A stretch of 64,000 nt of DNA, from NCBI GenBank assembly GCA_963402885.1, contig OY727099.1, forward strand, positions 24,509,001-24,573,000, read 5' to 3'. This document shows, one piece after another, positions 25,501 to 61,333 of this stretch (position 1 is its first letter; each line of letters opens with the position of its first letter). A model generated the notes under the pieces. That model had not been told where the DNA came from, did not search any database, and saw nothing but the letters and a program-made list of their open reading frames with translations. Both the position numbers and the translations under genes were made by a program. The stretch is from Antedon bifida (lineage: Eukaryota; Echinodermata; Crinoidea; Comatulida; Antedonidae).

Positions 25501-28500
25501 TACAGCTTACTGTACGACCACCCCCTGCAACTACCGGTCCGTGCGGACCTTCTATCGCAGGGCAGAGCACATCTCTCACTAACAAACATCCGATCCCTGC
25601 GCCTGACTGCCTGGCCATTGTCAGGGATCGCCTCCGAGAGTCTGGCATACCAGATGGCCCGGCCGCCCTGGCGGCCAAGTCCCGACGAGAATCGACGCTA
25701 ACAGTGTACAATAGCCGTCTGAAGCACTTCTTCCGGTGGTGCGCCGAGAAGAACACGGACCCCAGGACTGCGTCTCTGGGTCTTATCTGTGACTTTCTTT
25801 TTTACCTGTTCAATTCAGGGTTGCAACCCCGCACGATTGCAGGTTACCGGTCGGCCATCGCGGCCATATTGCCGGCGCTTCCCGACGGTTCGACGATCTC
25901 TAACTCTTCTGTCATCACGCACCTCTTGCGAGGCATGCATCATGAGCGTCCTCCTTCGTCGGTTCTCCTCCCGCGCTGGGACATCAACGTCGTACTCTCT
26001 GCACTCACCCGCGCCCCCTTCGAACCATTACATAATGCCTCTCTTTATAATCTCACCCTCAAAACGGCGTTCCTAGTTGCAGCGTCATCCTGTCGACGCC
26101 GGGGTGAGTTGCATGCTCTATTGCTAGAGCCCGGCCATATTAGGTTCGAACGCGGTGGCGTGCGGCTAACTTTTCGCAGGGGGTTTCTGGCAAAATCGCA
26201 GACGTTGCATCACTCGCCGCCCGCGATCTTCATCCCCACCATAGCTGCCTCTTCTTCTGTCCGCGAGGACAAACTCTGGTGCCCGGTGCGGGCCTTAAAG
26301 TTTTACGTCCATCGGACCAAGGACGTACGAGAAAAGCTCTCTCACCTCTTCTGCGTCACAGTCCCGCCATTCGGTCCGGCATCAAAGGCCACCATAGCTA
26401 GGTGGATCATCGCCGCGATCCAGGCAGGCTACTCGGCGTCTCAAACACCTCCACCTGCACACATGCATCAGGTACGGGGTATGGCTGCGTCATGGGCCCT
26501 GTTCTCGGGTGTTCCTCTAGCAGACGTACTACAAGCAGCATGGTGGCGATCGCATACAACGTTCACAGCTTTCTACCTCCAAGACCTCGCTCAAAACATG
26601 GCACCAGTAGCACACGCTGTGCTGAAGCCACAGTAAACAGGTATGTTGATCAAATTACCTCTTCTTGTCAGCCCACCACCGACTAGATGCCTAGTCCGGT
26701 GCTATTCTGGCCTATGTCGGTTCATCCAGGTAAGCTAGTCACGTAATAGACTACACAAACCAAGAGTGGTGTTGGTAGTCTATGAGTGATAGCTTACCTG
26801 GATGAACAACCCTCCCTCCTCCCCACTTGACAAGCGTCTCGTGGAATGGTGAGGTATGCATGGGCGTTGCCGCCCACCTGAGGGCGTGGCGCATGGGCGA
26901 TACCACTGTCTTGGAGGGGAGTTCATGAATAAAATGTTACTTTTCGGTTATGTTCTCCCCTTGAAGGGGAAAAGGCCTATGTCGGTTCATCCAGGTAAGC
27001 TATCACTCATAGACTACCAACACCACTCTTGGTTTGTGTATTTTAAAGTAAACTAACATAGATTTCAGTATTTAAAAATTGTTTTTAGAAGTTATCTATA
27101 CAAATAAAATGTTTTTCCTGTCCTCTTATGGAAATGTTTGAGATGATTTAAGATGGTACCAGGGAAAATAAGTTCAGTCTTCCCTAATGGTACGTACCAA
27201 TGCACTATATTGAATGAAACTGACACACAGACTTTTACGTGAGTATCCGTTATGAGGTGTCCATTTACAAGTGGTGTCCACAGGAAGTTTCAACTGTATT
27301 ATGGACCATATCTGTCATATTATGAAAAGTAAAGCTGACACAATTTCTTGGATATTTTAATTTCTTTTTTACTGTGCATTCTTTATTGTAGGAGGTTGGA
27401 CAATAACCAAATAAGGAAATTGCCAGCAAATGCATTTAATGGTTTGACAGCATTGACAGAACTGTGAGTATAATATCCCACAAATTTATCCCAAATCACT
27501 ATCATTGTACACTAAACTAAATATGCATGTAGTTTATCATTTTATAATGTGTAATTAAATTTTAATGAGAGATGATGAACCTGGAGCCACTGGTCAACTT
27601 GCCGGAAATAACACTTTTTTAACTATAACAGGGTTACTATTATCTAGCATAAAGGAAAACATTTACAGGGTGGGCAAGTAAAGCTAAAGACTAATTAGCG
27701 CAGTGGTTTTGGTTGCCAACAAAGCTGTAAATGGAAGAATAACTTATAAAAACTTTAACCTGAAAACAAACAAAAATAAAAGGGGTAAATGCAGTGTTTA
27801 TATTAAATCAATAGATAATTTGCAACTAACTTAATTAACTGCTCAAGCCCAAACTAGCAAGACCATAATGTGTATGATTTATCATGTAAGGTCGTTGGAC
27901 GGTAACCAAATAAGTACATTGGAAGCCTATGCATTTTCTGGTTTGGAATCATTGACAAAACTGTGAGTATTTTTTCAATTATAATACTGTATCAAACAAC
28001 TTGGATACTGTATATAATTTTCCTTACTATGAATTATTTTTCTGTATCAAACAACTATTTTATTTTGAAGACGTTTGAATGGTCACAAAATCAGTACATT
28101 GTCAGCTAATGCATTTAATGGTTTGAGAGCATTGACAACACGAAGTGTTTTTTCTTGTTCATATACTTTTATATTTTAATTAATTTTTAAATTACAGTAG
28201 AAGCCATATTATGGGGATACCTTCAAACCCAACAACGTTTTTATTGTTTTTGTAATGGGAAAAAATATTGTCCTCTTAGGGGTTGGCCATAGTATTAAAA
28301 TATATATTGCCCCTCGTTTTGGGGAAAATGTCTCCTGTAAATCTTACTCATTATAGTATATTAATTGGAGCTAATTATATGTTTAATTTTTTTTATTTAT
28401 TTATCTTTAAACAGGAACTTAGATAACAACGCTATAACTACCATAGATCCTGAGGCATTCTCTTCTTTTGCTTCATCACTTTTAATTTTGTAAGTTAACA

Positions 28501-31310: not shown

Positions 31311-33850
31311 TATTTGTTGAATCCAAGTATTTCATTTTTGTTTTAACATTTAAAATCAAGTTCATTTATAAATGCGACAGCTAATTCGTAAACTCCCATT
31401 GGTGACAATAGGACCAACTTTTACTTTAAATTTACAATTTTAATACTGGAAATGAATGTTTCATGAGGACTGCTTCTAAAAGCAAAATTTATACGTGATT
31501 TCGACCTATGACAGACAATTTTGAAAGACTTGATTTGGTGTTTTATACAGGATAAGAAATATGGCAGCCATTTTGAAGTATATTTCAAGTTCAAGTTAAA
31601 TAAAAATAACAACAACATACAATACTATACAAACCATCTTGGATTTTTAAAAGTTGATTTTCTTGCAAAATATATGTTTGCCAAAATCGGATGCTTTAAT
31701 ACTGATATTTGGGTAAAATTGGGAGAAAACGGCCATTTTAGTTATCTGCAAATTAGCAATTTGTCTTCCTTTTCTCCATTTATGTTGTTCAGATGGGTCT
31801 TACTGTTAGGAAGTACAACAAAAATGAATTCTGTTCTAATTTGACCGGACTAATTAATGGTCTTTCACACATGCTCCAGTCTGATACGGCAAATTAAACT
31901 GTGTCTCAATGTTTCATTTTCATGACGAAAACGCGATCAGTGCGTAGCCACATGGAAAGCAGCCAGCAAAACATGTTGAAAAGGCATTACAATATTACAT
32001 TATTATACTAACATTTTTAAATTGAAAATTGTGTTTAAATAGAATAATTAAGAATTAGCCACAAATGTTAACAATTGAGGCTTAAACATTGTGTACATAT
32101 GCCAGTCCTCAGTTGCTGTTAAATCTATTGAGTTGATTGTTTTATACATATTAATTGCTGGTTTATTCCAACCTAGCACTGCCCACTGCATTCTCTGGCA
32201 ACCTTTCTCTAAACCAATGTGAAAAAAATTAGAATGCTGTTATATGAGTTAGAAATTATTTATATATTCATTAATTATTCATGTTTTTCAGTTATTTTTT
32301 TACATAATTACCTCAGCAACCCTTCTCATCATAATTCGTCCGTAACCTCTTCCTATAAAATTTAAGTAAAGAATAACATTGATATTTTCTTTTTTGGTGA
32401 CATGCTAATTGACTTTTTATTGAAATTTGGTTTATATTACCAGAAAGCATTTTTAAAATATTTGGATGCATTCACATACATTAAAGGTCAGTCAGTAGTA
32501 GGTCATAGGTCAGTTAGTAGGTCATTTACCTCTGAACTCTTTCATGATATACAGGTCTTCCATATAAGCCACCTTTCTCTTCCAAGTATTGTATGTAAAG
32601 AAGAAAACTCTGTAACCAATTACTTCAAATGTCTCTACTTCTGGTCTTTTATATTCCGCTACTAGGCAAGACACAATGCTTCCTGGCTCAAATATATCCT
32701 TCTGTAGACCTGAAGAGTTTTAACAAGTTCAATAAACATATCACAGGAAAGCTACATTTCAGAAGACAAGTTTGCGAGTGCGTGATTTAATTATGTACAC
32801 TTTTTTGCACAAACCTTTATAATAATAAACACCGGCGCACATTAAATTGTTGAAATGAAATAGACAGTAGACTTCAATGACATGCATGACGTATGGTACC
32901 ATATGTAATTTCAGAAAAGACAGTATAGAAGAATAGATTTTGCGAGTGACGCATCAGGAACAGTGCCTAAAAAGTGTTTTCCCAAAATAATGGTATTCTT
33001 CTAGGCGGAATTTGTATGTGCTCAAAAATTGATTGAAACGATCTATATATTATTCAAAGAGCCAGGCTTCCGGGGCCCTTGGCGGTCCCCAGCCTAATGG
33101 TGCTCGCTTTGCTCACAAAGTATTTCATTTTTATACGTCCGAATGTTTGTAAAAGTTAACAATGCATGACAGCATTAGACATTGAATTTCATTATGTTAT
33201 TTCCATAAACTCTTTAACACCTTACTTTATACTGTACAGCATGGATCTATTCTCGTTCAGGAAGATAAACTGAAACATTTTGTATTGCGCTTACCTGCTA
33301 ACTAACAAACTTCTGATTTTACAGAATAATGCAAAATATTTAATACCTAGGTGAATGAATGGATTTAATTTGATGGATCTTTTATCTAATATAAAAGAAA
33401 AATAATACAAATCTGGCCTAGCTGCCTTAACCAGCCAGACATAGGTAAAAATCAGGAGGTGATAGAGAAATACTTACATAACATTTTTACTAATTAGCAG
33501 TCTTGTCCAAATAATGGTGCAACAAGTGTGCCGCTGATGAAATATTTATTTTCGCTCATTTTGACTATGCGGTATGGAAGAACATGATACCAAAACCGCA
33601 TATGGTAGTCAACTCACGTAATATTTGACATTTGTCTTCTTTTTGCAACACAATAATATTGGGTGGTACTGTTCGCACCTCAATCTCAACCCAAAACATT
33701 TACCCTCTCGCCATTTGCGCGGCGGTTATCTTTATTTGCAGCAGCGATTTCAAGTTAGGTGCAAAAGTACAGCAGTATTGCCGAACTTATGTATTGAATT
33801 TGAATCTCCGGCCCACAAATCATATAATTATTGAACTGTATTTTTGGGTC
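31311..33850. other. intergenic, nothing firmly recognised
   Basis: Small open frames (for example 31521-31844) have no recognisable domain. A cluster of AGGTCA words lies at 32485-32524 and a short GC-rich patch at 33060-33120. No RNA gene was seen. Confidence 0.4.
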
Positions 33851-33902
33851 AGTCTATTTACCAACAAAAACTGAAAAAAAACCCCTGAAAACAACCATAA
33901 AC

Positions 33903-34045
33903 AAAAAAATCTAAATACCAAAAACAAATTTGTATATTTTGTTTTTTAAATTTCGCCCTATACTGATGGGTGTTTCTAAAGCTAAGACCATGCAGAAAGA
34001 AGACCGCGAACACAAAGCCAAGGAAGACCTTACGAAATGGTATTG
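33903..34045. repeat. direct repeat, copy 1
   Basis: The segment with CTAAATACC, GATGGGT, TTCTAAAGCTAAGACCATGCA and AAGCCAAGGAAGACC recurs in the same orientation at 35369-35500. The two copies flank the minus-strand rolling-circle-like element. They differ by substitutions and small gaps. Confidence 0.75.
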
Positions 34046-34407: not shown

Positions 34408-35365
34408 CTAGATTTGAACTCGTCACTTTGACGAGTTCGGGTTATCCGCGGACACGCAACATGCAAATACGTTAAACAATATGAAGGCCGACAATTATTA
34501 TGCCATCCTAAGACATGAGTTCCATATGTTTACAGTGCTGAATTTAGTCTGGGTTCCAGACGGAGTTTTGTCTTAATATTAGTAAAAAGATATGGCACAT
34601 ATGGCGTTTCATACGTATACTACTTGATTTTGGATATTTTTTTCAGACAAAAATCGAAATAAAAACAAATAAATAAAAAAAGACTTGGGGCAAGTCTATG
34701 CTGAATTGTACCTATATCATTGCGGTATTATAACAGTATTTACAAGATACATTATATGTTATACAGTGTAGCATAGATGAAATTACGAGACCATCTTTTA
34801 ATTCAATTTTTAACATGATGACGTCATCAAAATGAAACACGTAGATAGCAATTTTGGAAGGAAATTATCTGAGCAACAACATATCAACGTGTTGAAGAAA
34901 TTAGGATACGTAGAATATGAGAGCGCGTTCTTTTAAATGTCATATGACGCAAAATATGAAATTACGACTTATATAATTGAACTAGCAATATGATGACGTC
35001 ACAACATCCGATGCGCATAATTCATTGTACATGAATTCTATCTACAATTCAACAGCTTCCAGAAAACGTTTTAATCACTTTTCATTCTGAGGAGCTATAA
35101 CAAATTAAAATTTATTGGAATGATGAAAATAAGTGACCAAAGTTATTCACGTTTTTGCGTATGATGGCGTAATAAAACATTTTAAAATGGTAAATCATGC
35201 GAAAGATAATTGATTGATCTATCAAATATCAAAATATGGGAGAAAGTGCGGATAACCAAAAAAAAAAAGATCCTGACAATAACAAGGGGTTATCATCCGC
35301 CAAGTGCGGATAATCAAAAAAGATCCTGACAATAACAAGGGGTTATCCGCCAAGTGCGGATAACC
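34408..35365 (-). mobile_element. Helentron-like (HINE-type) non-autonomous element, minus strand
   Basis: Read on the minus strand, the element begins TT-GGTTATCCGC at 35365 and ends in a hairpin (AACTCGTCA/TGACGAGTT) followed by CTAG at 34411-34408. GCGGATAACCC lies just before the 3' hairpin and complements the 5' end. The 958-base body has no coding capacity and carries TGACGTCA words, as in the array at 40.5-58 kb. Its 5' part shows three stacked 5' ends, at 35365, 35315 and 35257 approximately. Confidence 0.65.
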
Positions 35366-35368
35366 AAT

Positions 35369-35500
35369 AAAAAAATCTAAATACCTGAAAACAAATTTTG
35401 TATAATTTTTTTTTGATGTCGCCCTCTATTGATGGGTTTCTAAAGCTAAGACCATGCAGAGAAAAGAACGCGCGCGCAAAAGCCAAGGAAGACCCTACGA
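35369..35500. repeat. direct repeat, copy 2
   Basis: Second copy of the 33903-34045 sequence, downstream of the minus-strand element. Confidence 0.75.
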
Positions 35501-36416
35501 AAACAACTGCCGGTTTCTAATGTAATGTAATGATATACTTTTATAATTTAGAAATCAACCTTTGTATTAGAATTCAAATAAGTTCACAAACTTGACCCAG
35601 AAAGTCCAGAGGAGAGTTTGTCCAGATGTTTTAAAAGTCCATTTAGTTTATAATAGAATCCCTAAAGAAAACACTTAGCTTAACTTTGTGACTTTTCCCA
35701 TCGTTAAACCAGGAGAGATTGACACTATTTAAGTACAGATTTGACAGTGTCATCCATCATTGAAATACCTTATTATACCGTTAATCACTCCCACCTAAAC
35801 ACCCCTGGATCAACTTAGGACCAATCGTTACCCTCACAGACGACGTATTAACATATGCAAATGAACCGAAGCCAATATACTCCCAAGTTTCACCTTACAG
35901 CCACCTCACGGAAGACACACCTCACAGCCACTTCTCCAGAAGCAGACCTACACACCTCACCGACAGCATCCTTATCCTTATATTATACTGAAGTATTATT
36001 GTATCAAGTATTACACTGAATAAACAATATATGTGTTACGACAGCAAAGTGAGTAAAGAGTCTTCCTTACAAGTCAGAAACCTCATAACAACATTATATT
36101 ACACTAAGAAAACCGTTCTTTTTTAATAGAAACAGGCCCTTAAGGTAGTAGCCGTTTATTACTGAAATACAATGGAAATTGGAAGAACTATAAATTACTC
36201 CATCATGGGCTAATACAATAATTAATAGGACTAATAGGACTTTCATTAAAAAAGAGTGTACTTGGATTGGATAGACAAAAATTGAAAACAACATAAGCTA
36301 CATTATATGGGGACACAATGTGAAGGCGTATACGTTTTATAACAATTACGTTACTATACTGATCAATAAACTGGAAATTAGCAGACTCAGGTTGGTGTAA
36401 CGTTGACAATCTCGAA
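35501..36416. other. non-coding
   Basis: C-rich stretches at 35750-35970, otherwise AT-rich. No gene or repeat boundary recognised. Confidence 0.4.
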
Positions 36417-36773
36417 TACGATGATACAATGGGAATTGTAGGTACAGTATCCCTCATGATACAATGGGAATTGTAGGTACAGTATCCTTCATGATACAAT
36501 GGGAATTGTAGGTACAGTATCCCTCATGATACAATGGGAATTGTAGGTACAGTATCCTTCATGATACAATGGGAATTGTAGGTACAGTATCCCTCATGAT
36601 ATAATGGGAATTGTAGGTACTGTATCCCTCATGATATAATGGGAATTGTAGGTACAGTATCCTTCATGATACAATGGGAATTGTAGGTACAGTATCCCTC
36701 ATGATACAATGGGAATTGTAGGTACAGTATCCTTCATGATACAATGGGAATTGTAGGTACAGTATCCTTCATG
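36417..36773. repeat. 35-bp minisatellite, about 10 units
   Basis: The unit is CATGATACAATGGGAATTG plus TAGGTACAGTATCCYT. Units alternate mostly between CCCTCATG and CCTTCATG at their junctions, suggesting a 70-base higher-order dimer. It is not coding, because the period is not a multiple of three. Confidence 0.92.
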
Positions 36774-40542: not shown

Positions 40543-40665
40543 AGGTGATCATTTAGAATAAAATGATCACCTATTGTTATTGTATAAAATCTTTATTATT
40601 ATTTTTGGTTTTCCGCAACGAAGTTGCAGGAAAACCTCTTGTGATTGTACGAAATCATCATCATT

Positions 40666-43600
40666 GGTTTTCCGCAACGAAGTTGCAGGAAAACCTCTTG
40701 TGATTGTACGAAATCATCATCATCAACTTTTTATTAGTTATCCGCATTCAGCGGATAACTCCTTGTAACTGTCCTGTTTCATCATCTTTTTTTCTTCATC
40801 TTTCTTTCTGTCATTTTTGTGCAGAGCGTATCTTTAAAACATGTAAAGTTAAAATTTCATAACTTTGTCAACATATGAGCATTCACGTGAAGTTGTGCTT
40901 TTCTATTTTTGAATGACGTCAGAGTTGCGCAACATGACTTACGCGCGTTTTTATGATTTTCGCGTATTTAACATAGATTGAAAACCATATAACAATTTAA
41001 ATTGAAACTTAGCGAAAGTTTAATTTATGTCTTGCGCTAACTTTTTGTGCAAAAAAAATGTCATGTTTTACAAGAAGTTACGCGCGCACGCGCGTTTAAA
41101 ATTTTAAAATGCGAAAAAAAAAAATTCTAATCAACTTTCTACGCGTTTCATGTCATTTTGAACATGTCAAAAATTCCCACGAGCGCGCAATTTTTTACGC
41201 GCGCGGTGCGCACGTAGCGTTAAAAACATAATTTTTTCGAATGATTTATTTTTTTCCAGCCTTTTCTAGTAATGTTACCCACTTTTAAACAATTTCGACT
41301 TAAAGTTACGTCATACGAGCACGTCGAATTGGACAATTTTCGCACGTTTTTGATGAAAAAGTTCAAAAATTCGTCAAAATTATGCCTTTTTTTAAACAGT
41401 CATAATTTCTAAAATGCACGGTCAACTTTTTGTGGATGACATATTCTGGAAGTTGATGAGTTGTAGATATCAGATCATGTATTAATATGGCTAACCGGAC
41501 ATTGTGACGTCATCGTATGGCCACGCGAATATAAAATTTATGATTTTTGTATCTTTCGTCATAGCTCATCACATTTAATAGAGCGCATCTCCACTTATCC
41601 GTTTTCCATTTTCACCCCGATTTTGATATTGTCTAGGTCAATCAACTATCTTTCGCATGAGTTAAAAATATTTTAATTTTTATGACGTCATCATGCCTAA
41701 AAATTTAAATTACGTCTGGCATTAATTTCATCTTTACAGTAAATTTTAATCTGTTATAGCTCGTAAGAATAAAATGTGATAATCACGATTAAAACGTTTT
41801 CTGGAAGCTATTGGATTTTAGATACGAAATCATGTGAACATTTTGCCAATCGGATGTTGTGACGTCATCATATGGCCAGTTAAATAAAAAATGTCGTATT
41901 TTCATTTTTTGCGTCATAATTCATTACATTTAAATGAGCGCGCATCAATATTTCACGTATTCAAATTTCTTCTACACGTTAATATGTTGTTGCTGAGATA
42001 ATTTCCTTCTGAAATTGCTACCTTCGCGTTTTATTTTAAAACCGTCAACATGTTAAAAATTGTAATAAATGGCAGGTCCCATAATTTCACTTATTCTACA
42101 CTTATGTAATATGTATACATATTATACTATATATACTATATGACACAAAATTGACAGAATTCAGCACTAACAACATATCATATTCTTCAGTTCAGGTCAT
42201 AATGCCATAATCTTTTTCTGTGTGCAATATTCCAACGTATGACGTGCACGTAGCGTTTGTCATGCGGATAACTAACTCGTCAAAGTGACGAGTTACATGT
42301 CTAGTTTATCTTCTTTCTTTCTGTATGATTTTTGTGTATCGCTTTTCTCTGAAACTTGCAAACATAACATTTTGTGAACTATGTTAACATTTTGACATTT
42401 ATGTAACGTCGTCAAGCGAAGCTTTTCATGATGTTTACAATTGCGCAACGTGACGTACGCGCGATTTAACGATTTTCTCGTATTTAACATAGGTCAAAAA
42501 CCAAATAACATTTTATATTGAAACTTTGCACAAATTTAATTTATATCATGCGCTAACTTTCTGTCGAACCAAAATTGCGTGTTTTACACAAAGTTACGCG
42601 CGCACGCGCATTTAAAATTTCAAAATGCGCTAAATTATTTTCTAATCAAGTTTCTACGCGTTTCATGTCGTTTTAAGCATGTAAAAAATTCCCACGCGTG
42701 CGCAAATTTTTACGTGTGCGGTGCGCACGTAGCATTGAAAACGTATTTTTTTCGCGTGATTTATGTTTTTCCAGCCTTTTCTAGTAATTTTACCAAATTT
42801 TAAACAATTTCGACTTAAAGATACGTCATACGAGCACGTCGAATTGGACAATTTGCGCGCGTTTTTTATGAAAAGGTTAAAAAATTCGTTTAAAATATGT
42901 ATTTTTTTAAACCATCGTAATTTCTAAACTAGACGGTCAACTTTTTGTGGATGACATTTTCTGGAAGTTAATGAGTTGTAGATATCGGATCATGTATTAA
43001 TATGGCTAACCGGACATTGTGACGTCATCGTATGGCCACGCTAATATAAAATTTAGGATTTTTGTATCTTTCGTCATAGCTCATCACATTTAATAGAGCG
43101 CATCTCCACTTATCCGTTTTCCATTTTCACCCAAATTTTGATATTGTCTATGTCAATCAACTGTCTTTCGCATGAATTAGAAATATTTTAATTTTTTTGA
43201 CGTCATCATTCCTAAAAATTTAAATTACGTGTGGCATTAATTTCATCTTTACAGTAAATTTTAATCTGTTATAGCTCGTAAGAATAAAATTTGATAATCA
43301 CGATTAAAACGTTTTATGGAAGCTATTGGATTTTAGATACGAAATCATGTGAAAATTTTGCCAATCGGATGTTGTGACGTCATCATATGGCCAGTTAAAT
43401 GAAAAAAGTCGTATTTTCATCTTTTGCGTCATAATTCATTGCATTTAAAAGAGCGCGCATCAATATTTCACGTATTCAAATTTCTTTTGCACGTTAATAT
43501 GTTGTTGCTGAGATAATATCCTTCCGAAATTGCTATCTTTGTATTTCATTTTGATGCCGTCGCCATGTTAAAAATTGCAATAAATAGCGGGTCCCGTAAT

Positions 43601-43858
43601 TTCACCTATTCTACACTGTATGTGATATGGATACAGATTATACTGTGTATACTATATATGAATCAAAATAATAGAATTCAGCAATAATAACATATCATAT
43701 TCTTCAGTTCAGGTCATAATGCCAACGTGGACACTTCCTTTTGTCCTCAACCTATCCCCTTAATGTTCGGTACGGTAAGGTACGTCGTTACACGTTCATG
43801 TTGCACCACTTGCGCGGCGGAAAACCAAACTCGTCAAAGTGACGAGTTACATGTCTAG
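40666..43858 (+). mobile_element. nested element B2
   Basis: 5' end GGTTTTCCGC at 40666; body 42305-43858, ending GCGGAAAACC, hairpin and CTAG. Inserted 59 bases into B1. Interrupted by A1 after its first 70 bases. Confidence 0.65.
40736..42304 (+). mobile_element. nested element A1, uninterrupted, 1569 bp
   Basis: Starts AGTTATCCGC-ATTCA-GCGGATAACT and ends GCGGATAACT, AACTCGTCA/TGACGAGTT hairpin, ACATGT, CTAG. It carries four TGACGTCA words and internally repeats a module of about 360 bases twice (GTGACGTCATC followed by TATGGCC). Confidence 0.72.
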
Positions 43859-43933
43859 TTTTTTTTTGGTTTTCCGCAACGAAGTTGCAGGAAAACCTCT
43901 TGTGATTGTACGAAATCATCATCATCTTTTTTT

Positions 43934-45530
43934 AGTTATCCGCTTAGTAGCGGATAACTCCTTGTAACTGTCCTGTTTCATCATCTTTTTTTTTTTCTGT
44001 ATTCTTCTTTCTTTCTGTCATTTTTGTGTCACGCGTAACTCAAAAACGTGTAAACATAACATTTTATAACTTTGTCAACATGTGGGCGTTCACGTGAAGT
44101 TGTGCACCCGCTATTGTGAATGACGTCAGAGTTGCGCAACGTGACTTACGCGCGTTTTTATGAATTTCGCGTATTTAACATAGATCGAAAACCATATAAC
44201 ATTTTAATTTGAAACTTAGAAAAAGTTTAAGTTATATCTTGCGCTAACTGACTGTGAGGAAAAAATGGCATGTTTTACACGAAGTTACGCGCGCACGCGC
44301 GTTTAAATTTCAAAATGCGAAAAATCAATTTCTAATCAACTTTCTACGCGTTTTATGTCATTTTGAGCATGTCAAAAATTCCCACACGCGCGCATATTTT
44401 TATGCGCGCGGTGCGCACGTAGCGTTAAAAACAATTTTTTCCTCGTGATTTATGTTTTTCCAGCCTTTTCAAGTAATTTTACCAACTTTTAAACAATTTC
44501 GACTTAAAATTAACGTCATACCAGCACGTCGAATTGGATAATTTACGTACGTTTTTGATGAAAAAGTTCAAAAATTCCTTAAAATTTGTCAAAATTATAC
44601 CTTTTTTAAAACAGTCGTAGTTTCTAAACTAAACGGTAAAAGTTATTTTTATTACGTATTCTGGAAGATGATGAGTTGTAGATATCGTATCATGCATCAA
44701 TATTGCTAACAGGACATTGTGACGTCATCGTATGGCCATGCGAATATAAAATATAGGATTTTTGTATCTTTTGTCATAGAGCATCACATTTAATAGAGAG
44801 CATCTTCGCTTATCCGTTTTTCATTTTAACCCAGATTTTGATATTTTTTAGGTCAATCAACTACCTTTCGCATGGGTTAAAAATATTTTAATTTTTTTGA
44901 CGTCATCATGTCTAAAAATGTAAATAACGTGGGTCACTTATTTTCATCTTTACAGTAACTTTCAATCTGTTATAGCTCGTCAGAATAAAAAGCGGTAATC
45001 ATGATTAAAACGTTTTCTGGAAGCTATTGTATTGTAAATACGAATTCATATCAAAATTTTTCCAATCCGACGTTGTGACGTCATCATATGGCCAGTTGAA
45101 CAAAAAAAATTGTATTTTCATCTTTTGCGTCATAGTTCATCACATTTAAAAGAGCGCGCATCTATATTTTACGTATTCAAATTTCTTCTACATGTTAATA
45201 TGTTGTTGCTGAGATAATATCCTTCCGAAATTGGTATTTTAGTGTTTCATTTTGATACCGTCGCCATGTTAAAAAATGGAATAAATGGCGGGTCCCGCAA
45301 TTTCACCTATTCTACACTGTATGTAATATGTATACAGATTATACTGTTTATACTGTATATACTATATGACACAAAATTGACAGAATTCAGCACTAACAAC
45401 ATATCATATTCTTCAGATCAGGTCATAATGCCATAATCTTTTTCTGGGTGCAAAATTCTAACGTATGACGTGCACGTGGCGTTTGTCGTGCGGATAACTA
45501 ACTCGTCAAAGTGACGAGTTTCATGTCTAG
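43934..45530 (+). mobile_element. nested element A2, uninterrupted
   Basis: Starts AGTTATCCGC-TTAGTA-GCGGATAACT; ends GCGGATAACT, hairpin, TTTCATGT, CTAG. Inner loop differs from A1. Followed after TT by A3. Confidence 0.7.
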
Positions 45531-45532
45531 TT

Positions 45533-47134
45533 AGTTATCCGCTTAGTAGCGGATAACTCCTTGTAACTGTCCTGTTTCATCATCTTTTTTTTTTTTTTTC
45601 TGTATTCTTCTTTCTTTCTGTCATTTTTGTGTCACGCGTAACTCAAAAACGTGTAAACATAACATTTTATAACTTTGTCAACATGTGGGCATTCACGTGA
45701 AGTTGTGCACCCGCTATTGTGAATGACGTCAGAGTTGCGCAACGTGACTTACGCGCGTTTTTATGAATTTCGCGTATTTAACATAGATCGAAAACCATAT
45801 AACATTTTAATTTGAAACTTAGAAAAAGTTTAAGTTATATCTTGCGCTAACTGACTGTGGGAAAAAAATGGCATCTTTCACACGAAGTTACGCGCGCACG
45901 CGCGTTTAAAATTTTAAAATGCGAAAAATCAATTTCTAATCAACTTTCTACGCGTTTTATGTCATTTTGAGCATGTCAAAAATTCCCACGCGCGCGCATA
46001 TTTTTACGCGTGCGGTGCGCACGTAGCGTTGAAAACAATTTTTTTCGCGTGATTTATGTTTTTCCAGCCTTTTCTAGTAATTTTACCAACTTTTAAACAA
46101 TTTCGACTTAAAATTAACGTCATACGAGCACGTCGAATTGGATAATTTAAGTACGTTTTTTATGAAAAAGTTCAAAAATTCCTTAAAATTTGTCAAAATT
46201 ATACCTTTTTTAAAACAGTCGTAGTTTCTAAACTAAACGGTAAAAGTTATTTTTATTACGTATTCTGGAAGATGATGAGTTGTAGATATCGTATCATGCA
46301 TCAATATTGCTAACAGGACATTGTGACGTCATCGTATGGCCATGCGAATATAAAATATAGGATTTTTGTATCTTTCGTCATAGAGTATCACATTTAATAG
46401 AGCGCATCTCCACTTATCCGTTTTTCATTTTAACCCAGATTTTGATATTGTCTAGGTCAATCAACTACCTTTCGCATGGGTTAAAAATATTTTAATTTTT
46501 TTGACGTCATCATGTCTAAAAATGTAAATAACGTGGGTCACTTATTTTCATCTTTACAGTAACTTTCAATCTGTTATAGCTCATCAGAATAAAAAGCGGT
46601 AATCATGATTAAAACGTTTTCTGGAAGCTATTGGATTGTAGATACGAATTCATGTAAACATTTTGCCAATCGGTTGTTGTGACGTCATCATATGGCCAGT
46701 TGAATAAAAAAAGTCGTATTTTCATATTTTGCGTAATAGTTCATCACATTTAAAAGGGCGCGCATCTATATTTTACGTATTCAAATTTCTTCTACACGGT
46801 AATATGTTGTTGCTGAGATAATATCCTTCCGAAATTATTATTTTAGTGTTTCATTTTGATACCGTCGCCATGTTAAAAAATGGAATAAATGGCGGGTCCC
46901 GTAATTTCACCTATTCTACACTGTATGTAATATGTATACAGATTATACTGTTTATACTGTATATACTATATGACACAAAATTGACAGAATTCAGCACTAA
47001 CAACATATCATATTCTTCAGATCAGGTCATAATGCCATAATCTTTTTCTGTGTGCAAAATTCTAACGTATGACGTGCACATGGCGTTTGTCGTGCGGATA
47101 ACTAACTCGTCAAAGTGACGAGTTTCATGTCTAG
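45533..47134 (+). mobile_element. nested element A3, uninterrupted
   Basis: 1602 bases, closely related to A2 (same TTAGTA loop). Directly adjacent to A2, with TT between CTAG and the new 5' end. Confidence 0.7.
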
Positions 47135-48740
47135 TCTTGATCTTCTTTCTTTCTGTATGATTTTTGTGGAACGCTTTTCTCTAAAACTTGCAAACATAAC
47201 ATTTTGTAACTTTCTCAACATATCGTCATGCACATGAAGATGTGCTGCGAAGCTTTTCATGACGTTTACAATTGCGCAACGTGACTTACGCGTGATTTAA
47301 CGATTTCCTCGTATTTAACATAGGTCGAAAACCAAATAACATTTCAAATTGAAACTTTCCAAAAGTTTAATTTATATCATGCGCTAACTTTCTGTTGAAA
47401 AAAAATTACGTGTTTTACATAAAGTTACGCGCGCACGCGCATTTAAAATTTCAAAATGCGCAAAATTATTTTCTAATCAACTTTCTACGCGTTTCATGTC
47501 ATTTTAAGCATGTCAAAAATTCCCACGCGTGCGCAAATTTTTACGTGTGCGGTGCGCACGTAGCATTAAAAACATATATTTTTCGCGTGATTTATGTTTT
47601 TCCAGCCTCTTCTAGTAATTTTACCAACTTTTAAACAATTTGGATTTAAGGTTACGTCATACGAGCACGTCGAATTGGTCAATTTGCGCGCGTTTTTGAT
47701 GAAAAAGTTCAGAAATTTGTCAAAATTATGCCTTTTTTTAAACAGTCGTAGTTTCTAAACTGCACGGTCAACTTTTTGTGGATGACATATTCTAGAAGTT
47801 GATGAGTTGTAGATATAGGATCATGTATCAATATGGCTAACCGGACATTGTGACGTCATCGTATGGCCACGCGAATATAAAATTTAGGATTTTTGTAGCT
47901 TTCGTCATAGCTTACCACATTGAATAGAGCGCATCTCCACTTATCCGTTTTCCATTTTCACCCCGATTTTGATATTGTCTAGGTCAATCAACTATCTTTC
48001 GCAGGAGTTAAAAATATTTTAATTTTTTTGACGTCATCATGCCTAAAAATTTAAATCACGTGTGGCATTAATTTCATCTTTACAGTAAATTTTAATCTGT
48101 TATAGCTCGTAAGAATAAAATGTGATAATCACGATTAAAACTTTTTCTGGAAGCTATTGGATTGTAGATACGAAACTATGTAAAAATTTTGCCAATCGGA
48201 TGTTGTGACGTCATCATATGGCCAGTTAAATAAAAAAGGTCGTATTTTTATCTTTTGCGTCATAATTCATTACATTTAAAAGAGCGCGCATCAATATTTC
48301 ACGTATTCAAATTTCTTCTACACGCTAATACGTTGTTGCTGAGTTAATTTCCTTTCGGAAATGCTACCTTCGCGTTTCATTTTAAAACCGGCAACATGTT
48401 AAAAATTGCAATAAATATCGGGTCCCGTAATTTCACCTATTCTACACTGTATGTGATATGGATACAGATTATACTGTGTATACTATATATGAATTTAAAT
48501 AATAAAATTCAGCAATAACAACACATCATATTCTTCAGTTCAGGTCATAATGCCAACGTGAACACTTCCTTTTGTCCTCAACCTATCCCCTTAATGTTAA
48601 TGTTGCACCACTTGCGCGGCGGATAACCAAACTCGTCAAAGTGACGAGTTACATGTCTAGTTAGTTATCCGCATTCAGCGGATAACTCCTTGTAACTGTC
48701 CTGTTTCATCATCTTTTTTTTTTTTTTTTTCTGTATTATT

Positions 48741-50336
48741 AGTTATCCGCATTCAGCGGATAACTCCTTGTAACTGTCCTGTTTCATCATCTTTTTTTTT
48801 TTTTTTTTCTGTATTATTCTTCTTTCTTTCTGTCATTTTTGTGCAGAGCGTATCTCTAAAACTTGTAAAGTTAACATTTCATAACTTTGTCAACGTGTGG
48901 GCATTCACTTGAAGTTGTGCTTTTTTATTTTTGAATGACTTCAGAGTTGCGCAACATGACTTACGCGCGTTTTAACGAATTTCGCGTATTTAACATAAAT
49001 CGAAAACCATATAACATTTTAAATTGAAACTTAGTAAAAGTTTAATTTATATCTTGCGCTAACTGACTGTGAAAAAAAAATGGCATGTTTCACACAAAGT
49101 TACGCGCGCACGCGCGTTTAAAATTTTAAAGTGCGAAAAAATAATTTCTAATCAACTTTCTACGCGTTTCATGTTATTTTAAGCATGTCAAAAATTACCA
49201 CGCGCGCGCAATTTTTTACGCGCGCGGTGCGCACGTAGCGTTGATAACATACTTTTCCCGCATGATTTATGTTTTTCAAGCCTTTTATAGTACTTTTACC
49301 AACTTTTAAACAATTTCGACTTAAAATTACGTCATACGAGCACGTCGAATTGGATAATTTGCGCGCGTTTTTGATGAAAAAGTTCAAAAATTCGTCAAAA
49401 TGATGCATTTTTTTAAACCGTCGTAGCTTCTAAACTAAACGGTAAAAATTATTTTTATTACATATTCTGGAAGTTAATGAGTTGTAGATATCGGATCATG
49501 CATTAATATGGCTAACCGGACATTGTGACGTCATCGTATGGCCACGCGAATATAAAATATAGGATTTTTGTATCTTTCATCATAGCTCATCACATTTAAT
49601 AGAGCGCATCTCCAATTATCTGTTTTCCATTTTCACCCCGATTTTTATATTATCTAGGTCAATCAACTATCTTTCACATGAGTTAAAAATATTTTAATTT
49701 TTATGACGTCATCATGTCTAAAAATGAAAATAACGTGGGTCACTTATTTTCATCTTTACAGTAAATTTCAATCTTTTATAGCTCGTCAGAATAAAACGTG
49801 ATAATCATTATTAAAACGTTTTCTGGAAGCTATTGGATTGTAGATACGAATTCATGTAAACATTTTGCCAATCGGATGTTGTGACGTCATCATATGGCCA
49901 GTTGAATAAAAAAAGTCGTATTTTCATATTTTGCGTAATAGTTCATCACATTTAAAAGGGCGCGCATCTATATTTTACGTATTCAAATTTCTTCTACACA
50001 GTAATATGTGGTTGCTGAGATAATGTCCTTCCGAAATTGCTATCTTAGTGTTTCATTTTGATACCGTCGCCATGTTGAAAATAAGAATAAACGGGGGGTC
50101 CCGTAATTTCACCTATTCTACACTGTATGTAACATGTATACAGATTATACCGTTTGCACTGTATATACTATATGACGCAAAATTGACAGAATTCAGCACT
50201 AACAGCATATGATATTCTTCAGTTCAGGTCATAATGCCATAATCTTTTTCCGTGTGCAAAATTCCAACGTATGACGTGCGCGTGGCGTTTGTCGTGCGGA
50301 TAACTAACTCGTCAAAGTGACGAGTTTCATGTCTAG
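48741..50336 (+). mobile_element. nested element A4, uninterrupted
   Basis: 1596 bases, ATTCA loop type. Very close to A5. The first TGACGTCA is changed to TGACTTCA in this copy. Confidence 0.7.
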
Positions 50337-50338
50337 TT

Positions 50339-51933
50339 AGTTATCCGCATTCAGCGGATAACTCCTTGTAACTGTCCTGTTTCATCATCTTTTTTTTTTT
50401 TTTTTTCTGTATTATTCTTCTTTCTTTCTGTCATTTTTGTGCAGAGCGTATCTCTAAAACTTGTAAAGTTAACATTTCATAACTTTGTCAACATGGGGGC
50501 ATTCACTTGAAGTTGTGCTTTTTTATTTTTGAATGACGTCAGAGTTGCGCAACATGACTTACGCGCGTTTTAACGAATTTCGCGTATTTAACATAAATCG
50601 AAAACCATATAACATTTTAAATTGAAACTTAGTAAAAGTTTAATTTATATCTTGCGCTAACTGACTGTGAAAAAAAAATGGCATGTTTCACACAAAGTTA
50701 CGCGCGCACGCGCGTTTAAAATTTTAAAGTGCGAAAAAATAATTTCTAATCAACTTTCTACGCGTTTCATGTTATTTTAAGCATGTCAAAAATTACCACG
50801 CGCGCGCATTTTTTTACGCGCGCGGTGCGCACGTAGCGTTGATAGAATACTTTTCCCGCATGATCTATGTTTTTCAAGCCTTTTACAGTACTTTTACCAA
50901 CTTTTAAACAATTTCGACTTAAAATTACGTCATACGAGCACGTCGAATTGGATAATTTGCGCGCGTTTTTGATGAAAAAGTTCAAAAATTCGTCAAAATG
51001 ATGCATTTTTTTAAACCGTCGTAGCTTCTAAACTAAACGGTAAAAATTATTTTTATTACATATTCTGAAAGTTAATGAGTTGTAGATATCGGATCATGCA
51101 TTAATATGGCTAACCGGACATTGTGACGTCATCGTATGGCCACGCGAATATAAAATATAGGATTTTTGTATCTTTCATCATAGCTCATCACATTTAATAG
51201 AGCGCATCTCCAATTATCTGTTTTCCATTTTCACCCCGATTTTTATATTATCTAGGTCAATCAACTATCTTTCACATGAGTTAAAAATATTTTAATTTTT
51301 ATGACGTCATCATGTCTAAAAATGAAAATAACGTGGGTCACTTATTTTCATCTTTACAGTAAATTTCAATCTTTTATAGCTCGTCAGAATAAAACGTGAT
51401 AATCATTATTAAAACGTTTTCTGGAAGCTATTGGATTGTAGATACGAATTCATGTAAACATTTTGCCAATCGGATGTTGTGACGTCATCATATGGCCAGT
51501 TGAATAAAAAAAGTCGTATTTTCATATTTTGCGTAATAGTTCATCACATTTAAAAGGGCGCGCATCTATATTTTACGTATTCAAATTTCTTCTACACGGT
51601 AATATGTGGTTGCTGAGATAATGTCCTTCCGAAATTGCTATCTTAGTGTTTCATTTTGATACCGTCGCCATGCTGAAAATAAGAATAAACGGGGGGTCCC
51701 GTAATTTCACCTATTCTACACTGTATGTAACATGTATACAGATTATACCGTTTGCACTGTATATACTATATGACGTAAAATTGACAGAATTCAGCACTAA
51801 CAGCATATGATATTCTTCAGTTCAGGTCATAATGCCATAATCTTTTTCCGTGTGCAAAATTCCAAAGTATGACGTGCGCGTGGCGTTTGTCGTGCGGATA
51901 ACTAACTCGTCAAAGTGACGAGTTCAAATCTAG
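50339..51933 (+). mobile_element. nested element A5, uninterrupted
   Basis: 1595 bases, following A4 after TT. Ends hairpin, CAAAT, CTAG. Confidence 0.7.
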
Positions 51934-53454
51934 TTCTTCTTTCTTTCTGTCATTTTTGTGCAGAGCGTATCTCTAAAACTTGTAAAGTTAACATTTCATA
52001 ACTTTGTCAACATGGGGGCATTCACTTGAAGTTGTGCTTTTTTATTTTTGAATGACGTCAGAGTTGCGCAACATGACTTACGCGCGTTTTAACGAATTTC
52101 GCGTATTTAACATAAATCGAAAACCATATAACATTTTAAATTGAAACTTAGTAAAAGTTTAATTTATATCTTGCGCTAACTGACTGTGAAAAAAAAATGG
52201 CATGTTTCACACAAAGTTACGCGCGCACGCGCGTTTAAAATTTTAAAGTGCGAAAAAATAATTTCTAATCAACTTTCTACGCGTTTCATGTTATTTTAAG
52301 CATGTCAAAAATTACCACGCGCGCGCATTTTTTTACGCGCGCGGTGCGCACGTAGCGTTGATAGAATACTTTTCCCGCATGATCTATGTTTTTCAAGCCT
52401 TTTACAGTACTTTTACCAACTTTTAAACAATTTCGACTTAAAATTACGTCATACGAGCACGTCGAATTGGATAATTTGCGCGCGTTTTTGATGAAAAAGT
52501 TCAAAAATTCGTCAAAATGATGCATTTTTTTAAACCGTCGTAGCTTCTAAACTAAACGGTAAAAATTATTTTTATTACATATTCTGAAAGTTAATGAGTT
52601 GTAGATATCGGATCATGCATTAATATGGCTAACCGGACATTGTGACGTCATCGTATGGCCACGCGAATATAAAATATAGGATTTTTGTATCTTTCATCAT
52701 AGCTCATCACATTTAATAGAGCGCATCTCCAATTATCTGTTTTCCATTTTCACCCCGATTTTTATATTATCTAGGTCAATCAACTATCTTTCACATGAGT
52801 TAAAAATATTTTAATTTTTATGACGTCATCATGTCTAAAAATGAAAATAACGTGGGTCACTTATTTTCATCTTTACAGTAAATTTCAATCTTTTATAGCT
52901 CGTCAGAATAAAACGTGATAATCATTATTAAAACGTTTTCTGGAAGCTATTGGATTGTAGATACGAATTCATGTAAACATTTTGCCAATCGGATGTTGTG
53001 ACGTCATCATATGGCCAGTTGAATAAAAAAAGTCGTATTTTCATATTTTGCGTAATAGTTCATCACATTTAAAAGGGCGCGCATCTATATTTTACGTATT
53101 CAAATTTCTTCTACACGGTAATATGTGGTTGCTGAGATAATGTCCTTCCGAAATTGCTATCTTAGTGTTTCATTTTGATACCGTCGCCATGCTGAAAATA
53201 AGAATAAACGGGGGGTCCCGTAATTTCACCTATTCTACACTGTATGTAACATGTATACAGATTATACCGTTTGCACTGTATATACTATATGACGTAAAAT
53301 TGACAGAATTCAGCACTAACAGCATATGATATTCTTCAGTTCAGGTCATAATGCCATAATCTTTTTCCGTGTGCAAAATTCCAAAGTATGACGTGCGCGT
53401 GGCGTTTGTCGTGCGGATAACTAACTCGTCAAAGTGACGAGTTCAAATCTAGTT

Positions 53455-55049
53455 AGTTATCCGCATTCAGCGGATAACTCCTTGTAACTGTCCTGTTTCA
53501 TCATCTTTTTTTTTTTTTTTTTCTGTATTATTCTTCTTTCTTTCTGTCATTTTTGTGCAGAGCGTATCTCTAAAACTTGTAAAGTTAACATTTCATAACT
53601 TTGTCAACATGTGGGCATTCACTTGAAGTTGTGCTTTTTTATTTTTGAATGACGTCAGAGTTGCGCAACATGACTTACGCGCGTTTTAACGAATTTCGCG
53701 TATTTAACATAAATCGAAAACCATATAACATTTTAAATTGAAACTTAGTAAAAGTTTAATTTATATCTTGCGCTAACTGACTGTGAAAAAAAAATGGCAT
53801 GTTTTACACAAAGTTACGCGCGCACGCGCGTTTAAAATTTCAAAATGCGAAAAATCAATTTCTAATCAACTTTCTACGCGTTTCATGTCATTTTAAGCAT
53901 GTAAAAAATTCCCACGCGCGCGCATATTTTTACGCGCGTGGTGCGCACGTAGCGTTGAAAAGAATTTTTTTTCGCGTGATTTATGTTTTTTCAGCCTTTT
54001 CTAGTAATTTTACCAACTTTTAAACATTTTTGACTTAAAATTACGTCATACGGGCACGTTGAATTGGATAACTTACGTGCGTTTTTGATGAAAAAGTTCA
54101 AAAATTTGTCAAAATTATACCTTTTTTTAAACAGTCGTAGTTTCTAAACTAAACGGTAAAAGTTATTTTTATTACGTATTCTGAAAGTTGATGAGTTGTA
54201 GATATTGGATCATGCATTAATATGGCTAACCGGACATTGTGACGTCATCGTGTGGCCACGCGAATATAAAATATAGGATTTCTGTATCTTTCGTCTTAGC
54301 GTATCACATTTAATTGAGCGCATCTTCACTTATCCGTTTTCCATTTTCACCCCGATTTTGATATTTTGTAGGTAAATGAACTATCTTTCGTATGAGTTAA
54401 AAATATTTTAATTTGATGACGTCATCATGTTGAAAAAATTTAAATAACGTGGGTCACTTATTTTCTTCTTTAAAGTAACTTTCAATCTGTTATAGCTCGT
54501 CAGAATAAAAAGCTATAATCATGATTAAAACGTTTTCTGGAAGCTATTGGATTGTAGATACGAATTCATGTGAACATTTTTCCAATCCGACGTTGTGACG
54601 TCATTATATGGCCAGTTGAATAAAAAAAGTCGTATTTTCATCTTTTGCGTCATAGTTCATCACATTTAAAAGAGCGCGCATCTACATTTTACGTATTCAA
54701 ATTTCTTCTACACGTTAACATGTTGTTGCTGAGATAATGTACTTCCGAAATTGCTATCTTAGTGTTTCATTTTGATACCGTCGCCATGTTAAAAATAAGA
54801 ATAAACGGGGGGTCCCGTAATTTCACCTATTCTACACTGTATGTAACATGTATACAGATTATACCGTTTGCACTGTATATACTATATGACACAAAATTGA
54901 CAGAATTCGGCACTAACAGCATATGATATTCTTCAGTTCAGCTCATAATGCCATAATCTTTTTCCGTGTGCAAAATTCCAACGTATGACGTGCGCGTGGC
55001 GTTTGTCGTGCGGATAACTAACTCGTCAAAGTGACGAGTTCAAGTCTAG
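53455..55049 (+). mobile_element. nested element A7, uninterrupted
   Basis: 1595 bases, following A6 after TT. Ends hairpin, CAAGT, CTAG, then the B1 body resumes. Confidence 0.7.
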
Positions 55050-58000
55050 TTTCATCTTCTTTCTTTCTGTATGATTTTTGTGTAACGCTTTTCTCTAAAA
55101 CTTGCAAACATAACATTTTTTTAACTATGTTGACATTTTGACATTTATGTAACGTCGTCAAGCGAAGCTTTTCATGATGCTTACAATTGCGCAACGTGAC
55201 GTACGCGCGATTTAACGATTTTCTCGTATTTAACATAGCTCGACAACCAAATAACATTTCAACTTGAAACTTTGCAAAAGTTTAATTTATATTATGCGCT
55301 AACTTTCTGTGGGAAAAAAATTGCGTGTTTTACACAAAGTTACGCGCGCACGCGCATTTAAAATTTCAAAATGCGCAAAATTAATTTATAATCAACTTTC
55401 TACGCGTTTCATGTCGTTTTAAGCATGTCAACAATTCCCACGCGTGCGCACATTTTTACGTGTGCGGTGCGCACGTAGCATTGAAAACGTATTTTTTTCG
55501 CGTGATTTATGTTTTTCCAGCCTTTTCTAGTATTTTTACCAAATTTTAAACAATTTCGACTTAAAGATACGTCATACGAGCACGTCGAATTGGACAATTT
55601 GCGCGCGTTTTTTATGAAAAGGTTAAAAAATTCGTTTAAAATATGCCTTTTTTTAAACAGTCGTAATTTCTAAACTAGACGGTCAACTTTTTGTGGATGG
55701 CATATTCTGGAAGTAGATGAGTTGTAGATATCGTATCAGGTATTAATATGGCTAACCGGACATTGTGACGTCATCGTATGGCCACGCGAATATAAAATTT
55801 AGGATTTTTGTATCTTTCGTCATAGCTTACCACATTGAATAGAGCGCATCTCCACTTATCCGTTTTCCATTTTCACCCCGATTTTGATATTGTCTAGGTC
55901 AATCAACTATCTTTCGCAGGAGTTAAAAATATTTTAATTTTTTTTACGTCATCATGCCTAAAAATGTAAATCACGTGTGGCATTAATTTCATCTTTACAG
56001 TAAATTTTAATCTGTTATAGCTCGTAAGAATAAAATGTGATAATCACGATTAAAACTTTTTCTGGAAGCTATTGGATTGTAGATACGAAACTATGTAAAA
56101 ATGTTGCCAATCGGATGTTGTGACGTCATCATATGGCCAGTTAAATAAAAAAGGTCGTATTTTCATCTTTTGCGTCATAATTCATTACATTTAAAAGAGC
56201 GCGCATCAATATTTCACGTATTCAAATTTCTTCTACACGCTAATACGTTGTTGCTGAGATAATTTCCTTTCGGAAATGCTACCTTCGCGTTTCATTTTAA
56301 AACCGTCAACATGTTAAAAATTGCAATAAATATCGGGTCCCGTAATTTCACCTATTCTACACTGTATGTGATATGGATACAGATTATACTGTGTATACTA
56401 TATATGAATTTAAATAATAAAATTCAGCAATAACAACATATCATATTCTTCAGTTCAGGTCATAATGCCAACGTGAACACTTCCTTTTGTCCTCAACCTA
56501 TCCCCTTAATGTTAATGTTGCACCACTTGCGCGGCGGAAAACCAAACTCGTCAAAGTGACGAGTTACATGTCTAGTCTTTTTATTGTTTCTGTACACTAT
56601 TTTGTGTAACAATTATCTCAAAAAGTTTAATGTCAATGATTACAAAAATTTCAGAATATCTTTCAAATAATATAACTTAATCCTAATAAGCTTTCCAGCG
56701 TGATCACTCATCCGTGACGACATTTATACGCCATTTTGCGAAATCACATTATCAATCATATCTCCATAATTCATTATCACATATTAATGAAATTCACAAC
56801 ACGTAAACTTCAGATCAAGGGTAAAAATATTAGCAAATAAAAACGCACGCGCACGTAGGTTCATGCGCGTGATATCGCGCGTTAAAAATTTAAAACGCTC
56901 AAAATTAAGTTTTGATCAATTTAGAGCATGAATTAGGCCATTTGCCTGTTTCAAAAAATTACTGCGCAAAAATGCGTTTTTGCGCACGCGATACTTAAAA
57001 AGCGTAAAAAACATGATTTTTTTTTACAAATCTCATTCTACTCACCATCCTTAGTACATTCACTAAATTTGAGTCAGTTCCGACTTAAAATAACGCTATA
57101 CGAGCACGTTAAAAATGACAAAATGCGCACATTAATTTTACAAAAGTTCTGAAAATGGTGAAAAATAGGTCTTTTTTAAAATGAAAATAATTCTTCAGAA
57201 TGCAAGATGACCCCCGATTTTTTTAACTTATTCTGGAAGCCATTGAGTTGTAGATATGAATTCATGTACACATTTTACGTACAAAATGTTTTGACGTCAT
57301 CAAATGGCCACTTGAATTTAAAAATTAGGATTTGTTATCTTTTTGTGTAGATTATCACATTCAACAGAGCGCATCTTGGTTATGTGTGCTCGAATTTCGC
57401 ACAACTTTCAGTATGTGCTTGCTTAATTAATTATCTTTATCATGAGTTGACACTATCTTCATTTTAATGACGTCATCACGCGTAAAAACTTGAATAACGT
57501 AGGCCGTGTAATTTCACCTTCGCAGTAAATTTGAATATCTTACAGCTCTTCAGAATTGAAGGTTACCTTGATGATTATAATTTATTATGAAAACTGATGA
57601 AATGTAGATATTAATTCATATAAAAATTAAGCCTATCGGATGTTGTGACGTTAACATATGGCCAGTTGAAGTGAAAAAGTAGTTTTTTTCATATTTTTCG
57701 TCAAAGTTATACACAATTCAAAGAGCGCGCACAGCGCTTCTACGTGCCAAATTTTTTTCCAAATCTTATATTTTTTTGCTCAATTAATTATCTTTCGAAA
57801 TTATCATCTTAAAGTTTAGTTTGATAACGTCATCATGCCAAAAAATTAGAACATGTGTGTCCCGTAATTTCACCTATGCTACACTGTATATAGATATACA
57901 GTATATACTGTACATATTGTATATGGCATATAATAGGCACAACTCAGCGCTATAAGCATATAATAGGATGGCATACATCAACATTTTCCGATCGTATGTT

Positions 58001-58090
58001 AACGTACGTGCATGTTTAAAACAAATTAATTTCAGTAAAATGATAAAAATGATCACCTATAATTCGTCAAAGTGACGAATTAAATTCTAG

Positions 58091-60649: not shown

Positions 60650-61333
60650 CATCCAGTAAGCGCCACAGTAAGCTCTGCAATCCAGAAAGCGCCGCAGTCT
60701 AGAAAGCGCCACAGTCCAGTAAGCGCCACAGTCTAGTAAGCTCTACAGTTCAGTAAGCGCCATAGTCCAGTAAGCTCTACAGTTCAGTAAGCGCCATAGT
60801 CCAGTAAGCACCGCAGTCTAGTAAGCGCCACAGTCCAGAAGCGCAACAGTCCAAAAAGCGCCACAGTCCAGTAAGCGCCACAGTCCAGTAAGCGCCACAG
60901 TCCAGTAAGTGCCACAGTCTAGTAAGTGCCACAGTCCACCAGTAACCTTCGCAGTCCAGTAAGCGGCACAGTCCAGTAAGTGCCACAGTCTAGTAAGTGC
61001 CACAGTCCAGTAAGCGCCACAGTCCAGTAAGCGCCACAGTCTAGTAAGTGCCACAGTCCACCAGTAACCTTTGCAGTCCAGTAAGCGGCACAGTCCAGTA
61101 AGCTCTACAGTCTAGTAAGTGCCACAGTCCAGTAAGCTCCACAGTCCAGTAAGCTTCGCAGTCCACAAAGTGCCACAGACCAGTAAGCGCTACAGTCCAG
61201 TAAGCGCCACAGTCCAGAAAGCGCCACAGTCCAGAAAGCGCCACAGTCCAAAAAGTGCCACAGTCTAGTAAGCGCCGCAGTCCAGTAAGCTCCGCAGTCT
61301 AGTAAACTCCACAGTAGTCCAGTAAGGTGCCAC
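60650..61333. repeat. 17-bp minisatellite, right copy (about 40 units)
   Basis: Same unit as 4010-4367 but about twice as long. A block containing ACCAGTAACCTTYGCAGTCC recurs, showing block duplication within the array. Confidence 0.9.

Follow-up and report, generated by a model that had tools for sequence, protein, structure and literature searches.

Non-autonomous Helentrons of the HINE/DINE-1-like kind are non-coding elements with palindromic subterminal repeats and a 3′ palindrome, which insert into T-rich DNA bounded by two or more Ts on either side, frequently carry internal repeats and tend to cluster (PMC4067079, which also discusses Helitron clusters and tandem arrays). In oyster, HINEs favour TT within T-rich DNA (PMC7492417). 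Helitron2, a family defined by a tree of RepHel proteins, has a terminal 5′ arm that folds with the bases just downstream and a 3′ arm that immediately precedes the 3′ hairpin, about 20-30 bp from the end, and the two arms are reported to change jointly (PMC3627910). Helitron self-insertion and multiple 5′ termini have already been published (PMC5148889, PMC3288121). Repeated short 5′ termini (31-85 nt) in FoHeli, a Helitron2-like element of Fusarium, are explained by self-insertion, the proposed route being that an outer 5′ end is joined to whichever 3′ end comes first, and three tandem copies in Metarhizium acridum are attributed to a double insertion into a 5′ end or, alternatively, to a rolling-circle process (PMC5148889); in maize, nested rolling-circle insertion is held to yield multiple termini (PMC3288121). 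Here we describe a locus at positions 40543-58090 of a 64,000-nucleotide stretch of the crinoid Antedon bifida (assembly GCA_963402885.1, contig OY727099.1, positions 24,509,001 to 24,573,000, forward strand; hereafter the window) that is very probably a four-layer nest of eleven non-autonomous elements of the Helentron/Helitron2 kind (HINEs), grown by self-insertion into their own T-rich tracts.

The elements belong to a known kind; the depth and tidiness of the nest are unusual. They share with HINE/DINE-1-like elements the lack of coding capacity, the palindromic subterminal repeats and 3′ palindrome, a T-rich target with Ts on both sides, internal repeats and clustering, but their arms begin at base one and not 2-4 nt inside, and a deep nest that keeps both ends of every element, as found here, does not appear in the accessible text of PMC4067079. 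The arms are arranged as in the asymmetric terminal inverted repeat of Helitron2, an arrangement close to that of the HINE subterminal repeats: the 5′ arm is terminal and folds in the same way, the 3′ arm precedes the 3′ hairpin (30-32 bp here) and the arms change together, although the present elements encode no protein that could be placed in a RepHel tree. In FoHeli a single 3′ end usually accompanies several 5′ ends and the target is TNAT/A (PMC5148889), whereas both ends of all eleven elements are kept here and the target is T/T. The nested state of the maize elements is an inferred, hypothesised intermediate (PMC3288121). A literature search, weak and mostly without subscription papers, returned no multi-layer typed nest, no crinoid Helitron, and no single locus with ten self-insertions, all ends kept and three arm types in balance.

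Typed ends and nested order

A scan of both strands of the window recovered all eleven 5′ ends that an initial annotation of this DNA had proposed, on the plus strand and of three types (one O, three B and seven A), and eleven 3′ ends, each a hairpin followed by CTAG, that divide into the same types in the same numbers (Table 1). A single hairpin core is common to all the 3′ ends within 40543-58090. The 3′ arm of B3 (ending at 48660, 10 bp) is ambiguous, agreeing at 9/10 positions with the B and with the A 5′ arm alike; this element is typed as B because its body is B-like (95.0% identical to B1, 82-86% to the A copies).

A stack parse of the 22 ends gives the order O[B1[B2[A1] B3[A2 A3] A6[A4 A5] A7]] and joins ends of equal type in 11 of 11 pairs. 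The initial annotation had described this order correctly in words, with a slip in its bracket string. Shuffling the 22 labels produced a balanced and typed order in 34 of 400000 trials, and with the bracket pattern fixed as observed the types matched in 290 of 400000, both null models ignoring array growth. Same-type pairing depends on the nesting order alone: 5′ stubs of one type are too similar to be linked to their bodies. The presence of A within B and of B within O goes beyond what plain tandem duplication gives.

Table 1 Elements and stacked ends of the two nests (window coordinates).
Feature	Position	Strand	Structure	Basis
O, outermost host	40543..58090	+	restored 40543-40606 + 56576-58090, 1579 bp	ends, parse, alignment
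B1, within O; hosts B2, B3, A6, A7	40607..56575	+	restored 40607-40665 + 55050-56575, 1585 bp	
B2, within B1; hosts A1	40666..43858	+	restored 40666-40735 + 42305-43858, 1624 bp	
A1, within B2; centre B-like	40736..42304	+	uninterrupted, 1569 bp	ends, alignment, mosaic test
B3, within B1, nine Ts past B2; hosts A2, A3	43868..48660	+	restored 43868-43933 + 47135-48660, 1592 bp	
A2, within B3	43934..45530	+	uninterrupted, 1597 bp	ends, alignment
A3, two Ts past A2; 97.1% to A2	45533..47134	+	uninterrupted, 1602 bp	
A6, within B1; hosts A4, A5	48663..53452	+	restored 48663-48740 + 51934-53452, 1597 bp	
A4, within A6; 99.0% to A5	48741..50336	+	uninterrupted, 1596 bp	
A5, two Ts past A4; body equals A6 body	50339..51933	+	uninterrupted, 1595 bp	
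A7, within B1, two Ts past A6	53455..55049	+	uninterrupted, 1595 bp	
Stacked 5′ stubs of O, B1, B2 and A1, all broken at the T-rich tract	40590..40818	+	59-bp unit x2, 100%	
Stacked 5′ ends of A6 and A4	48661..48818	+	78-bp unit x2, 100% identical, T17 run included	
Second, decayed nest	34408..35365	-	5′ ends 35365, 35315, 35257; one 3′ end 34408	

Each of the eleven elements is built on one plan. The 5′ hairpin consists of the initial 8-12 bases, perfectly paired with those just downstream, and the same arm is repeated 30-32 bp before the 3′ end, perfectly in all except B3 (9/10). A 3′ hairpin, with a stem of 9-10 bp and a loop of 3 nt, lies 8-10 nt from the CTAG end in 11/11. A minus-strand element (C) follows the same plan with a perfect 5′ arm, its arms being measured from its second base. 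Compared across types, the O arms agree with 3′ arms outside their own type at no more than 8/12 positions, the A 5′ arm matches the 3′ arms of B1, B2 and B3 at 8/10, 8/10 and 9/10, and the B arm matches those of the A copies at 8/10.

No open reading frame of at least 110 codons occurs in 40543-58090. Two diverged internal blocks about 355 bp apart are present in each of the three bodies examined, with identities of 74.2% over 178 columns (A4), 72.8% over 147 (B1) and 68.2% over 314 (O), shuffled sequences scoring far lower. An Rfam scan of the window gave no match at the gathering threshold. The 21-base 3′ hairpin was found nowhere in the viral contigs searched and once in prokaryote genomes (a Niallia record, which we take as chance), in sets that may omit the window's own genome. 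A canonical Helitron (Helitron1) was considered and rejected: in place of a 5′ TC and insertion between A and T, the 5′ ends read AGTT, GGTT or AGGT after TT, and CTAG is followed by T.

Restored hosts

Hosts were restored by removing the inserts together with the T spacers between neighbouring inserts. The five restored hosts (1579-1624 bp) align end to end with the six uninterrupted copies (A1-A5 and A7, 1569-1602 bp), so that the excision and alignment suggested by the initial annotation, carried out here against copies of the same locus only, bears out its estimate of about 1.57-1.62 kb per element.

The remaining B pairs agree at 94.3% (B1/B2) and 91.9% (B2/B3); A copies compared range from 100.0% (A5/A6), through 99.0% (A4/A5) and 97.1% (A2/A3), to 94.2% (A4/A7). 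A and B copies are 81.7-86.0% identical, and O is 61.3-62.1% identical to the other ten. Relative to A5, A6 differs at two columns (both T, at the joint), A4 at 17 and A7 at 96; the near-identity of A4, A5 and A6 noted at the outset thus stands. B2 carries about 29 bp ahead of its 3′ arm (43765-43793) that are absent from B1 and B3.

Insertion into the T-rich tract

The ten insertions share one orientation and fall into only five tracts: one in O, four in B1, one in B2, two in B3 and two in A6. These hosts are broken 64, 59, 70, 66 and 78 bp inside their 5′ ends, respectively. TT precedes 11/11 elements, and T follows 11/11 (TT in 9/11); T flanks at all 22 positions fit a TT duplication and T-ended elements inserted without duplication alike. 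For a zone of 45-95 bp, chosen after the sites were known, the chance of capturing 5/5 breaks is 1.8e-6 if all TT steps are equal, 9.3e-6 if only TT steps in runs of at least 4 count and 9.8e-5 for T runs of at least 5.

In 5/5 hosts the 21 bp richest in T are those of the tract (0.71-0.86 T, against 0.62-0.67 elsewhere). Because T content over 21 bp picks out the tract in every host, an extra positional signal is unnecessary. The length of T runs was rejected as the cause of target choice: the bodies of O, B1 and B2 hold runs longer than that of the tract, the longest run sitting in the tract for B3 and A6. As inserts land in the host's own T-rich tract, every copy supplies a fresh landing site, and nesting most likely arises from this landing strip near each copy's start. 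Taken with the 22 ends, the hosts that resume at homologous positions and the T flanks support the earlier description of the locus as a "Russian doll" built by self-insertion and not a simple satellite.

The second, decayed nest lies on the minus strand (about 34.2-35.4 kb) and follows the layout of the plus-strand nest, which we count in favour of self-insertion. Its 5′ ends are spaced by 50 and 58 bp, with every break in a T run, and about 185 bp below 34408 resemble the beginning of an A-type body (alignment score 69, against 40 for the highest-scoring of 300 shuffles). It is unbalanced because the scans found no further 3′ end. Separately, about 137 bp upstream of this nest recur in diverged form below its 3′ end (33900-34037 and 35366-35502, minus strand; compared without a shuffle control).

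Mosaic copies

Ten triplets of copies were examined for mosaic structure, with 2000 permutations each. A1 contains a B-like stretch in comparisons with A4/B3, A3/B3, A4/B1 and A4/B2 (0/2000 permutations in each); its columns 670-1125 are 95.9% identical to B3 and 90.5% to A4, and both its ends are A-like. B1 has one B2-like and one B3-like stretch (0/2000 each), and B3 resembles the A copies over a short segment, columns 162-196 (0/2000 in two triplets). At about 403-752, A7 is like A3 or A2 (0 and 1 of 2000); compared with A4, it is 99.2% identical in columns 100-360, 90.2-90.7% in 360-1125 and 94.5-97.8% further on. In A2, one stretch weakly resembles A7 (5/2000). Converse stretches were not significant in 9/10 triplets.

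A copies linked by nesting or by a common tract are 97.7% alike, against 92.6% for A pairs generally, a level reached in 12 of 5040 relabellings. The greater likeness of linked A copies, together with the mosaics, therefore indicates that copying, conversion or exchange was local.

Alternative explanations

Several observations weigh against growth by self-insertion, at least in its plainest form. The mosaics, and the similarity among A copies that are linked, reveal local copying or exchange in addition to simple insertion, and the identical bodies of A5 and A6 are explained more cheaply by duplication than by insertion from elsewhere. No uninterrupted B or O copy exists within the window, so that the B and O joints were judged against A copies, and the comparison of restored hosts is confined to copies inside the window. 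The Ts left behind by inserts raise the T content of the restored tracts. No Rep/helicase gene was seen and the partner enzyme was not found here, and the minus-strand nest has a single 3′ end.

For A4, A5 and A6 alone, two tandem duplications within one element, of a 78-bp 5′ stub and a 1519-bp body, both bounded by TT, would produce the same sequence, as the initial annotation had allowed; conversion is a variant of this explanation. The identity of the A5 and A6 bodies and of the stubs, and the TT on either side of both breakpoints, agree with it. It would nevertheless take two events whose breakpoints coincide precisely with the insertion site and the end of the element itself, and the 17 columns that separate A4 from A5 mean that A4 still needs an event of its own. 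We regard this account as possible, if on the unlikely side.

It is unlikely that the pairs A2 A3 and A4 A5 each arrived as a head-to-tail multimer, made by rolling-circle replication past the 3′ end or from circles. The spacers of two Ts between paired copies are consistent with it, bypassed termination has been invoked for tandem Helitrons of bat and silkworm (PMC4067079), and circles and head-to-tail junctions are described for Helraiser (PMC5876387). Multimers are expected to be identical, yet A2/A3 agree at 97.1% and A4/A5 at 99.0%, for which later mutation could account, and the adjacent pairs B3-A6, A6-A7 and B2-B3 are of different types or more diverged. Since B3 and A6 adjoin despite being of different types (82.4% identical), adjacency requires no multimer.

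It is very improbable that the entire array is a satellite generated by unequal exchange, with the stubs and orphan bodies marking breakpoints in T tracts. Such an origin could accommodate the mosaics and the local likeness of copies; it sits poorly with three types nested in each other, typed closures in 11/11 cases, A and B copies that differ by 14-18% and an O copy that is only 61-62% identical. The uniform head-to-tail units of a satellite array are also missing: 5/11 units are split around others. An assembly artefact, which the long identical stretch common to A5 and A6 might suggest, is the least credible of all, as outside A4-A6 the A and B copies are about 3-18% apart, enough to distinguish them, and matching Antedon protein records on contigs of 26-41 Mb suggest, without showing, a long-read assembly.

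Possible mechanism and significance

The balanced order would follow from repeated self-insertion, for which we infer the enzyme, the strand mechanism and the time order. By analogy with the family, a partner enzyme would start at the 5′ hairpin end, copy the element as one strand through the 3′ hairpin to CTAG, and join this strand between two Ts of a T-rich target. Autonomous partners in this family encode a Rep-helicase, accompanied in Helentrons by an endonuclease. Older copies would make good targets, their own most T-rich stretch lying 59-78 bp inside the 5′ end, and each insertion would renew the supply; ten insertions into the tracts of O, B1, B2, B3 and A6 would yield the observed nest. 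Template switching or gene conversion may have produced the mosaic pattern seen in some copies.

A further proposal, which we consider rather doubtful, combines two ideas: that the typed arms act as addresses, a copy begun at one 5′ arm ending only at the matching 3′ arm so that outer elements of another type are copied whole through their inserts, and that the T tract has been selected as a landing pad which each element carries along and by which nests grow. A nest of three arm types that retains both ends of each element forms a natural test of end choice, between the first 3′ end met and the matching one. A target tract borne by the element itself is also a simple rule by which a dispersed transposon can become a long array.

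Other features of the window

At 29650-30708 lies a receptor gene for which three Antedon records are the closest of 71 listed, with 97-99% identity across 96% of its length and 99% for the crinoid Antedon mediterranea. An acetyltransferase (GNAT) gene, its exons joined by eye, lies on the minus strand at 32090-32710. A retroelement rich in G+C (about 60%) at 22050-26636 combines a reverse transcriptase with a weak, below cut-off match to a phage-integrase N-terminal domain, and is reminiscent of DIRS/Ngaro; a DUF5641 protein fragment at 20457-21563 is reminiscent of BEL/Pao retroelements. Tandem repeats comprise an 83-bp unit at 9267-10368 (13.3 copies, 94% matches), a 35-bp unit at 36421-36773 (10.1 copies, 96% matches) and a 17-bp minisatellite unit that is arrayed, in rotated form, near both ends of the window (4009-4349 and 60666-61315).

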